NCBI RefSeq assembly: GCF_037975245.1
Contig: NC_092577.1
Location: 33,066,398 to 33,130,397, forward strand
Reading direction: 5' to 3'
Length of the DNA stretch: 64,000 nucleotides
From: Apostichopus japonicus
Lineage: Eukaryota > Echinodermata > Holothuroidea > Aspidochirotida > Stichopodidae
Shown here: positions 42,337 through 58,981 of the stretch, piece by piece
Numbering within the stretch: the first letter of the stretch is position 1
Layout of the letters: each line of letters starts with the position of its first letter
Notes under the pieces: model-generated
Seen by the model: the letters and a program-made list of their open reading frames with translations, nothing else
The model's database searches: none
What the model was told of the DNA's origin: nothing
Translations under genes and position numbers: made by a program

Positions 42337-42415
42337 ATGAGGATGGAGGGCCTACGCTACAAAGTGTTTAAAAATCTCGTTTTAATACTTGCTATTCTTC
42401 CAATTTTGGCAGAAG
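42337..42415 (+). CDS. mosaic gene exon 1: signal peptide
   Basis: [13 protein letters not shown] followed by [13 protein letters not shown]: a basic n-region and a hydrophobic core. A second in-frame ATG is at 42343. Donor GTAAGT at 42416, phase 1. Confidence 0.85.
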
Positions 42416-57400: not shown

Positions 57401-58981
57401 GTTTTCTTCGAATCTGAAAATTACCCCTCTCCATACCCCACGAATGGTTTCTTCATCTATTCTGGAGAAGCAGAAGCAGGGTTGTCAGGAGTCGTGGAGT
57501 TCCTTGATTTCGATGTTGAGGACGGTAAAGACTTTCTTACTTTTGGTTGTGGAAAGAATCCATACGATAAGTCCACCATCGTCGCCACTTTCACCGGTGA
57601 ATTGCCTCCCTCTCTGATCATTGACTGTCAGCAAATCTGGTTTACTTTGGAAACCGATTCTTCAGAGGGGAATAACAGAGGTTATTTTGGATCTATTACA
57701 ACTGTGAGACGGATAGGTAAGTCACCGGGGCTAAAGGAGGGTCCGCCGGTATTGGCCCGTTGTCATATGGTGCCCTTTTCCTATTCCGACTATCGAATGA
57801 CGTATTCTGTTTCTCAACTAATGATTGAAGCAACTTGATTATGCAATACATTGAACAATGTGGGAAACACAATTAGATTATGCTAATAACTCTAACTGAG
57901 TGGGTGATCAATGGTTGTAACTACACTGTCGACCTGTTATAATAGTCAGCTTAAAGGGGATCCCAAGTCTCTGCGAATATGGATTGGTCAGAATGAATTA
58001 AAAGGATAAATTAAGACAGAATATTTTGCAACCAGTTTAAAAAGCTTTACTATCTGTCCAGGTTGTAATTCTAGGAAATACATACCGTAAAAGCAATGTA
58101 TTACAGATTTATGGTTTTTTGATGTCACAAAAAGATGATGTTTATGTTTTGCTTTGGTAATTATAATTCCTAAAACAATGGGTTAATAAATAACATTTTG
58201 ACTACGGTTCTATTTATCATAAAGAATATTTACCATTTTTTCCGATTACAGTGGAGCCGCCGCCGGAACTGGTTGCAGGCAGATGTACTGACTATTTACC
58301 ATATTCGGAAACTGTTTCCGAGACGAAGTTTCCTCTGAAATTACCTCTCGGGAGGGAAGTCATCAGGGACCTGATAATGGGTCCGGCGTGTAATGACGAT
58401 GAGGTACTACGTGGGATTTGTGCGATCCTCTATCCTCCCTTGAAGGCTGACACCGAACAGGGTGAGGTCGACGTCTGCTCATCTACATGCGAGAAGTTTC
58501 ACCTGTGTTCGAGCATTGACTTATTGGTCGACGTCGACTGCGATTCCATCAGTTCCAATACTCCTCACGATGTCTTACCTGGATTATGTTATGAAGGTGC
58601 GTATATATATGATACTCGTTGGCGGCGGAATGGGGTAGAAGGGGCGGCGGGGGGGGGGGGGGTAAATTGTGGTACGATTAAGGTTGTAGCTGAGATCAAC
58701 ATACTGCTATCCTTTGAGACATTTGTTGAAGTAACCCTATGTTCCAGAATTTCGAGTGTTTGCAACCAACATTGTTAAAGCCAGACACGTTTTCTTCAAA
58801 GTGCCCAAAAATTCCGATATGCAGCAAAACTGCTTCTCATTTCAATACCCTCTTGACAACTTGCTTAAACGATGTCGCGGATTAAGAGTACAGGAAGGAA
58901 CACACAACACTTCTTGATGGGTTGTCATAATACTTAGATATCTATCTTTTTTATTATTTCTCAGGTGAAAAAGAAGACTAG
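42337..58981 (+). CDS. secreted EGF/LDLa/CUB/Frizzled-like mosaic protein
   Basis: Eighteen exons join in frame to 3450 nt, or 1149 residues plus TAG. Order seen: signal peptide (1-26, [12 protein letters not shown]), EGF (27-68), EGF (69-107), LDLa (108-145), CUB (146-261), LDLa (262-302), short LDLa (303-333), then CUB and short LDLa alternating (334-1029: five CUB, four short LDLa), a Frizzled-like domain (1030-1144) and a five-residue tail. All 17 introns are phase 1, so internal exons are freely shuffled units. No transmembrane segment or protease domain is seen; the product should be secreted. CUB and LDLa pairs usually bind proteins with calcium, and Frizzled CRDs bind Wnts or lipids. 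Vertebrate MFRP has CUB-LDLa-CUB-LDLa-Frizzled but is a membrane protein without EGF; I know of no exact match to this order. Function unknown; ligand capture outside the cell is an inference. TATA-like and poly(A) signals frame the gene. Confidence 0.85.
43572..43697 (+). CDS. mosaic gene exon 2: EGF domain 1
   Basis: [14 protein letters not shown], then [14 protein letters not shown]: six cysteines in EGF spacing with the G-Y/F-x-G-x-x-C end. Confidence 0.88.
45430..45546 (+). CDS. mosaic gene exon 3: EGF domain 2
   Basis: [15 protein letters not shown], then [15 protein letters not shown]: six EGF cysteines. Acceptor GTTTCTTAG, donor GTAAAG. Confidence 0.88.
45837..45950 (+). CDS. mosaic gene exon 4: LDLa domain
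   Basis: [20 protein letters not shown], then [15 protein letters not shown]: six cysteines and the DxxDCxDGxDE calcium site. Confidence 0.9.
46276..46623 (+). CDS. mosaic gene exon 5: CUB-like domain 1 (no cysteines)
   Basis: [19 protein letters not shown] near the start, then [10 protein letters not shown] and [17 protein letters not shown] strand pattern, but neither of the two disulfides is possible. Confidence 0.75.
46758..46996. mobile_element. MITE family B, copy 2 (mosaic gene intron 5)
   Basis: 239 bp from TTAA to TTAA, beginning TTAAAGGTAGTCAGTATAGG and ending in GCATACCTTTTAA. It is the inverted counterpart of 9909-10160, sharing internal TGACCAAAGGTGACCATATT. Confidence 0.75.
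47295..47640. repeat. 81-bp tandem repeat, four copies (mosaic gene intron 5)
   Basis: Units begin GTCTGGTACTTGAAAATGAA at 47301, 47382, 47463 and 47558 (the third has a 14-bp insertion). 81 is a multiple of three, which keeps open frames on both strands. It ends just before the acceptor of exon 6. Confidence 0.9.
47662..47784 (+). CDS. mosaic gene exon 6: LDLa domain
   Basis: [20 protein letters not shown], then [17 protein letters not shown]: six cysteines. Acceptor CTACCTCGCAG. Confidence 0.88.
48904..48996 (+). CDS. mosaic gene exon 7: four-cysteine LDLa-like module
   Basis: [14 protein letters not shown], then [15 protein letters not shown]: keeps the calcium-site half of LDLa but lacks the first disulfide partner pair spacing. 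31 codons. Confidence 0.78.
49210..49554 (+). CDS. mosaic gene exon 8: CUB-like domain 2
   Basis: [30 protein letters not shown] and [15 protein letters not shown] match CUB strands; only one cysteine. Confidence 0.75.
49940..50035 (+). CDS. mosaic gene exon 9: four-cysteine LDLa-like module
   Basis: [14 protein letters not shown], then [15 protein letters not shown]. Same four-cysteine layout as exon 7. Donor GTAAGT. Confidence 0.8.
50951..51283 (+). CDS. mosaic gene exon 10: CUB-like domain 3
   Basis: [33 protein letters not shown] and [15 protein letters not shown]. Two cysteines. The acceptor (CATTAAAG) has a weak pyrimidine tract but the frame and phase fit. Confidence 0.8.
52023..52121 (+). 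CDS. mosaic gene exon 11: four-cysteine LDLa-like module
   Basis: [15 protein letters not shown], then [15 protein letters not shown]. Confidence 0.8.
53067..53402 (+). CDS. mosaic gene exon 12: CUB-like domain 4
   Basis: [37 protein letters not shown] and [20 protein letters not shown]. It introduces the GCGxxPxD motif shared with exons 14 and 16. Confidence 0.85.
53425..53985. repeat. about 560-bp (TA)n microsatellite (mosaic gene intron 12)
   Basis: An almost pure TA run beginning about 20 bases after the exon 12 donor and ending in (CA)n. True length may differ because such runs assemble poorly. Confidence 0.95.
54333..54434 (+). CDS. mosaic gene exon 13: four-cysteine LDLa-like module
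   Basis: [15 protein letters not shown], then [16 protein letters not shown]. The acceptor is AATGTATAAG, weak but in phase. Confidence 0.75.
54505..54840 (+). mobile_element. tRNA-derived SINE, family 3 (mosaic gene intron 13)
   Basis: tRNA-Leu/Ser-like head with A box TGATCAAGTGGTTAAGG and B box GGTTCGACTCC, followed by GTGTCCTTGGGCAAGGCAC, a motif seen in several animal SINE families, and ending in a CTTCAACTTTAA tail. Confidence 0.82.
55422..55760 (+). CDS. mosaic gene exon 14: CUB-like domain 5
   Basis: [30 protein letters not shown] and [17 protein letters not shown]. Very close to exon 16. Donor GTAAGT. Confidence 0.87.
55824..55848. repeat. (TCAA)n microsatellite
   Basis: About six perfect TCAA units in mosaic gene intron 14. 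Confidence 0.85.
56340..56438 (+). CDS. mosaic gene exon 15: four-cysteine LDLa-like module
   Basis: [14 protein letters not shown], then [16 protein letters not shown]. Confidence 0.8.
57378..57716 (+). CDS. mosaic gene exon 16: CUB-like domain 6
   Basis: [30 protein letters not shown] and [17 protein letters not shown]. Same length (339 nt) as exon 14. Confidence 0.87.
58252..58596 (+). CDS. mosaic gene exon 17: Frizzled-like cysteine-rich domain
   Basis: [36 protein letters not shown] and [14 protein letters not shown] follow the Frizzled CRD pattern (CxxYxPY, ICAxxYPP, CxxxC). Eight cysteines are seen where the family usually has ten. Confidence 0.78.
58965..58981 (+). CDS. mosaic gene exon 18: terminal coding exon
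   Basis: After TTATTTCTCAG it gives GEKED and TAG in the correct phase. Very short, so the end of the protein is the least certain part of the gene. Confidence 0.55.

Follow-up and report, generated by a model that had tools for sequence, protein, structure and literature searches.

Corin carries LDLa modules, and the calcium-binding CUB proteins include C1r/MASP, PCPE, SCUBE and BMP1/tolloid. A Frizzled (Fz) domain has also been described for corin (PMC6747125), and MFRP is presented as a type II membrane protein carrying one Fz, two CUB and two LDLa domains (PMC12036977). NETO1/2, CULD and SOL-2 are described as a transmembrane CUB/LDLa family that acts on receptors and channels (PMC4732287). 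The gene considered here lies on the + strand of a 64,000-nucleotide window from Apostichopus japonicus (RefSeq assembly GCF_037975245.1, contig NC_092577.1, positions 33,066,398 to 33,130,397), in whose own numbering all positions below are given. It seems to be an animal gene encoding a large protein of EGF, LDL-receptor and CUB modules, in the order signal, EGF, EGF, LDLa, CUB, LDLa, five pairs of a short LDLa and a CUB, then a domain with eight cysteines and a very short final exon.

Like MFRP, the predicted protein places CUB and LDLa modules ahead of a C-terminal cysteine-rich domain. Unlike MFRP, it has a putative signal peptide, two EGF modules, six CUB modules, seven LDLa modules (five of them trimmed) and a last domain without a Pfam Fz match, and the MFRP make-up of two CUB, two LDLa and one Fz is not found here. 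A first-pass annotation of this locus had set the protein apart from MFRP as apparently secreted and expanded, and comparison of the gene model with the published MFRP agrees. Its further suggestion of a Wnt or lipid trap requires that the protein end in a Frizzled-type cysteine-rich domain (CRD), and Pfam and hhalign yield no such domain. The two module types of NETO1/2, CULD and SOL-2 are shared, but the modules are repeated many times and no later membrane span is seen here. Apart from the EGFs, the best solved relative is the CUB–LDLa segment of enteropeptidase; unlike the proteases enteropeptidase and corin, the product has no protease domain that we could find. Five of its six CUBs carry a Glu-Asp-Asp set resembling that of the calcium-binding CUB proteins, the third Asp being shifted by one column in two of them. 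It differs from those proteins in that LDLa modules separate its CUBs, that the CUBs have fewer cysteines and that no protease or NTR domain was found. No description of this domain order was recognised among papers listed by literature searches, as judged from titles and the beginnings of abstracts. The order may be new and the module types are known, but novelty is unproved.

The gene was rebuilt as 18 exons, from 42337 or 42343 to 58981, by placing the modules together with their flanking AG and GT sites (Table 1). The joined exons are free of stops. They encode 1149 residues, as the first-pass annotation had it, if translation starts at the ATG at 42337, and 1147 if it starts at the ATG at 42343; an in-frame stop lies upstream of the former ATG at 42301–42303. 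Each of exons 2–17 holds a single module. All 17 introns are GT–AG and phase 1. Where several splice sites lay near a module the frame-keeping ones were taken, and the phase-1 pattern is therefore partly a matter of choice. A frame-compatible AG/GT pair is nonetheless present beside every module, which is unlikely to come from chance frames. Splice-site strengths, scored leave-one-out, vary, with the weakest donor at exon 3 and the weakest acceptor at exon 4. Exon 1 is the only candidate in 34500–58251 that combines a signal-like N-terminus with a phase-1 donor, under a rule that the donor match five of the six letters of GTAAGT. Among the 17 donors of the gene itself, 14 satisfy this rule, which misses weak ones such as the remaining three; it gives no second signal-peptide exon in 42416–58251.

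A Pfam search of the whole protein places three families above their curated cut-offs: (i) CUB, 151.8 bits over five stretches; (ii) LDLa (Ldl_recept_a), 59.4 bits over six stretches and (iii) EGF, 24.9 bits against a cut-off of 21.5 over two stretches. No Fz match accompanies them. When exons are searched individually, five of the six CUB exons exceed the cut-off, the failure being exon 8, and LDLa exons 4 and 6 pass (two of seven LDLa exons scanned alone). The five short LDLa exons and the exon 8 CUB align with the other modules of their kind in the gene, giving the first-pass order from the first EGF through the fifth LDLa/CUB pair. When hidden Markov models (HMMs) of these modules are run on six-frame open reading frames of at least 18 residues in the 64 kb, no additional CUB, LDLa or EGF exon emerges, the next-best matches having E values of 0.57, 0.76 and 0.27, respectively. 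Relatives were also sought in viral contigs; each of two scans gave seven pattern matches, and tblastn shows none of them to be related.

What is unusual is that two cysteines, the same ones each time, are missing from five of the LDLa modules. Ordinary LDLa modules form three disulfides from six cysteines, the first and third cysteines pairing with each other. Exons 4 and 6 retain all six. The five short modules (exons 7, 9, 11, 13 and 15) have four each, in line with the short LDLa modules of the first-pass annotation, so the six-cysteine pattern is absent from all of them, and alignment to exons 4 and 6 identifies the missing residues as the first and third. The CUB domains are likewise poor in cysteines: they usually carry four, whereas the counts here, in order, are 0, 1, 2, 2, 2 and 2. 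The CUBs of exons 14 and 16 are 61% identical, with a nonsynonymous divergence (dN) of 0.30 and a synonymous divergence (dS) of 1.81, and this last CUB pair thus looks like a duplication under purifying selection. Between the remaining CUBs divergence is too great for dS to be estimated.

The product is strongly acidic, with 199 acidic and 71 basic residues and a calculated pI of 4.06, and has eight N-glycosylation sequons. No membrane span is seen after the signal; the most hydrophobic 19-residue stretches there (1.75) belong to the CUB of exon 8. Calcium-binding CUB domains are described with a Tyr-Glu-Asp-Asp motif that includes one Glu and two Asp, and with multi-point, low-affinity partner binding (PMC10850435, PMC10214685). 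Our comparison covers the Glu and the two Asp. In the alignment of the six CUBs, Glu occupies column 50 in five and Asp column 54 in all six; the third acidic position is Asp in five, at column 98 in exons 8, 12 and 16 and at column 99 in exons 5 and 10. In the exon 14 CUB, Q and T replace the Glu and the third Asp.

The Glu-Asp-Asp set in five of six CUBs points to calcium-dependent capture as the likely mechanism. Given the LDLa spacers, the pI of 4.06 and the lack of a later membrane span, the most economical interpretation is a protein that is secreted and engages basic ligands at several points. We therefore consider it somewhat more probable than otherwise that the protein is a secreted, strongly acidic, calcium-dependent CUB/LDLa ligand binder; secretion, calcium binding and ligand binding are what we infer beyond the gene model, the modules and the acidic residues themselves. 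In such a protein, six CUBs spaced by LDLa modules would present a long multi-point surface, with an arm of two EGFs at the N-terminus and the 8-cysteine domain as a cap at the C-terminus, and basic protein ligands or partner receptors would be captured electrostatically at many calcium-dependent sites. Several points weigh against this proposal. The third Asp is spread over two alignment columns, the signal peptide was called from hydropathy only, and the window extends just 5 kb past the last exon, leaving room for unseen exons. Characterised CUB/LDLa proteins are also described as often membrane-bound (PMC4732287).

Table 1. Exons of the EGF/LDLa/CUB gene, in window coordinates
Exon	Position	Strand	Content and evidence
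1	42337..42415	+	start (ATG 42337 or 42343), hydrophobic signal peptide; phase-1 donor
2	43572..43697	+	EGF, 6 Cys; Pfam EGF; phase 1-1
3	45430..45546	+	EGF, 6 Cys; Pfam EGF (two stretches in protein); phase 1-1; donor 1.2
4	45837..45950	+	LDLa, 6 Cys; Pfam Ldl_recept_a 26.4 bits (cut-off 24.1); acceptor 0.6
5	46276..46623	+	CUB without cysteines; Pfam CUB 34.8 bits (cut-off 21.4)
6	47662..47784	+	LDLa, 6 Cys; Pfam Ldl_recept_a 30.5 bits
7	48904..48996	+	short LDLa, 4 Cys; aligned to other LDLa modules
8	49210..49554	+	divergent CUB, 1 Cys; Pfam CUB 16.1 bits, below cut-off of 21.4; aligns with other five CUBs
9	49940..50035	+	short LDLa, 4 Cys; alignment
10	50951..51283	+	CUB, 2 Cys; Pfam CUB 43.5 bits
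11	52023..52121	+	short LDLa, 4 Cys; alignment
12	53067..53402	+	CUB, 2 Cys; Pfam CUB 24.2 bits
13	54333..54434	+	short LDLa, 4 Cys; alignment; weak acceptor 3.4
14	55422..55760	+	CUB, 2 Cys; Pfam CUB 32.8 bits; 61% identical to exon 16 CUB
15	56340..56438	+	short LDLa, 4 Cys; alignment
16	57378..57716	+	CUB, 2 Cys; Pfam CUB 30.9 bits
17	58252..58596	+	domain with 8 Cys, type uncertain, perhaps a divergent Frizzled-type CRD; Fz HMM 7.6 bits
18	58965..58981	+	five residues GEKED, then stop TAG; best downstream acceptor

A question for the C-terminal cap is whether exon 17 encodes a Frizzled-type CRD. The first-pass annotation called it Frizzled-like; we could not confirm this, the similarity being marginal, and the assignment is weakly supported. 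Exon 17 matches no Pfam family, whether searched in full at E up to 1 or in trimmed form at E up to 10, and in particular does not match PF01392; in the same kind of search an Fz8 control scores 124.7 bits, and the HMMER filters remove most matches above E ~0.1. A phmmer search of exon 17 against the PDB returned no Frizzled protein, and its single match, to tektin at E 1.4, was taken as chance. Against a local HMM built from 11 typed Frizzled-type domains, exon 17 scores 7.6 bits (P ~2.6e-4), a score matched by 7 of 2000 shuffles with cysteines fixed and by 4 of 2000 free shuffles. True members held out of that model score higher, at 13.6 (ROR1), 55.2 (collagen XVIII), 105.4 (sFRP1), 107.8 (corin) and 115.2 bits (FZD6), and among open reading frames of the window in all frames eight others beat exon 17. 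In HMM–HMM alignment the hhalign probability against Frizzled is 0.8%, which is not significant and is equalled by 21/150 Cys-fixed and 14/150 free shuffles; the Smith–Waterman score against Fz8 is weak, being equalled by 108 free and 135 Cys-fixed shuffles out of 2000, and the end-gap-free global score, weaker still, by 467 and 611, respectively.

The cysteine layout gives a more favorable picture. In three alignments all eight exon 17 cysteines fall on Frizzled cysteine columns, which only 1 of 600 shuffles achieves, but control segments of the same gene also align in part by their cysteines (8/17, 5/13, 7/10 and 2/5 on Fz cysteine columns). The single-model HMM score and the cysteine layout are each suggestive of a Frizzled-type domain, at about 1 in 300 to 1 in 600. 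The Frizzled CRD is described as having ten cysteines with spacings X8, X6, X3 and X6/7, paired C1–C5, C2–C4, C3–C8, C6–C10 and C7–C9 (PMC6938638). Exon 17 has eight, separated by gaps of 34, 9, 18, 3, 5, 10 and 15; the published ten-cysteine spacing is not found, with X9 and X5 standing where Frizzled has X8 and X6/7. With the lone N-terminal cysteine at C1, as in the three alignments, C2 and C5 are missing; this is not the loss of a disulfide pair because C1 bonds with C5 and C2 with C4. However, this cysteine lies 34 residues before the next one, close to the 36 counted manually between C2 and C3 of Fz8. On that spacing it fits C2 better, and C1 and C5 would then have been lost as a pair.

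A true but divergent Frizzled-type CRD lacking the C1–C5 disulfide, in a protein that would bind Wnt or lipid after secretion, is the alternative that survives best. The description of MFRP as binding phosphatidylserine (PMC12036977) is in keeping with it. Set against the missing Pfam match, the poor alignment scores, the better-scoring frames elsewhere in the window and the aligned loss of C2 and C5, it stands as a serious contender that we slightly disfavor, and any assignment of exon 17 to the Frizzled class is tentative. Wnt or lipid trapping itself is speculation.

A second alternative concerns the 3′ end, where exons could have been missed or could continue past 64000 and supply a membrane, seven-transmembrane or protease terminus. 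The window stops ~5 kb after the last exon, the exon 17 donor is weak (4.4), and a phase-compatible frame from an acceptor at 63777, with hydropathy 1.59, runs off the window edge. On the other hand, of the 270 AG sites that follow exon 17 the exon 18 acceptor scores best, its score being reached by 7 of 3488 + strand AG sites (itself included), and it leads to a stop after five codons; the first AATAAA after the gene is at 59918. Downstream acceptors scoring at least 4 lead to 19-residue hydropathy above 2 only in simple repeat at 60.6–61.0 kb, and no membrane exon was found among them. Pfam assigns no family to the 10 frames searched out of 25 downstream + strand frames of at least 45 residues, and the protease motifs GDSGG and TAAHC are absent from the + strand downstream, within the window. 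Within the window these limited scans find neither the transmembrane nor the protease exon that would contradict the first-pass annotation, and we regard continuation of the gene as unlikely. A lone TAAHC, the trypsin-like protease motif, occurs upstream of the gene at 37067 (+), probably by chance.

The N-terminus offers a third alternative, in which its hydrophobic stretch is not cleaved off but anchors the product in the membrane in type II orientation, as for MFRP, corin or enteropeptidase. All three are membrane proteins, and basic residues precede the stretch. The stretch is short (~12 residues), however, and is followed by small residues and then by the module chain, an arrangement that resembles a cleavable signal, so that anchoring seems improbable. 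More doubtful again is an evolutionary scenario in which the gene is a lineage-specific secreted decoy from an MFRP-like ancestor, its repeat amplified and its paired cysteines removed in step to leave a calcium-stiffened trap with a Wnt- or lipid-binding cap. The pairs lost would be C1–C3 from the five LDLa modules, C1–C5 from a Frizzled CRD that has diverged and, from the CUBs, one disulfide.

Finally, it is very unlikely that the region comprises two genes, an EGF-EGF-LDLa-CUB-LDLa gene ending after exon 6 and a short-LDLa/CUB gene beyond it: LDLa exons 6 and 7 are adjacent where the repeat changes, and read-through of exon 6 could supply a hydrophobic tail from intron 6 (47785–47852; 23 residues, mean hydropathy 1.59, the highest of 8 scorable tails out of 17), but the start-exon rule, which misses weak donors, gives no second signal exon in 42416–58251 and the phases agree across the exon 6/7 junction.

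Within the gene, we also note that retention of intron 6 over 47785–47852 may give a membrane-bound short form, and that a perfect (AT) array of ~281 copies (53423–53985) starts 21 bases past the end of exon 12. Upstream on the + strand (22401–34345), a zf-CW domain in frame 22401–23087 and flavin amine oxidase pieces at 26569–26871 and 33995–34345 represent a KDM1B-like gene, a name we take from the domain pair. A T-box transcription factor is present in two pieces at 10161–12689 (−), the upstream piece scoring 24.2 against a Pfam cut-off of 26 bits, and a C-type lectin piece lies at 1614–1967 (+; Lectin_C 29.1 bits, cut-off 22.6). These three neighbours are consistent with animal DNA. Nearly the same peptide is encoded at 19887–20171 and 63023–63262, which indicates a dispersed repeat, and Pfam assigns nothing to the second copy. 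A marginal tRNA match at 22420–22491 (+; 32.6 bits against an Rfam cut-off of 29) is perhaps a short interspersed element.

If the domain order holds in transcripts, the gene would clearly illustrate exon shuffling between phase-1 introns, one module at a time, and would be a natural experiment in the pairwise loss of disulfides across repeated modules. If, in addition, the C-terminal cap has a Frizzled fold, a step that is unproven, secreted Wnt or lipid binders would extend beyond the sFRPs.

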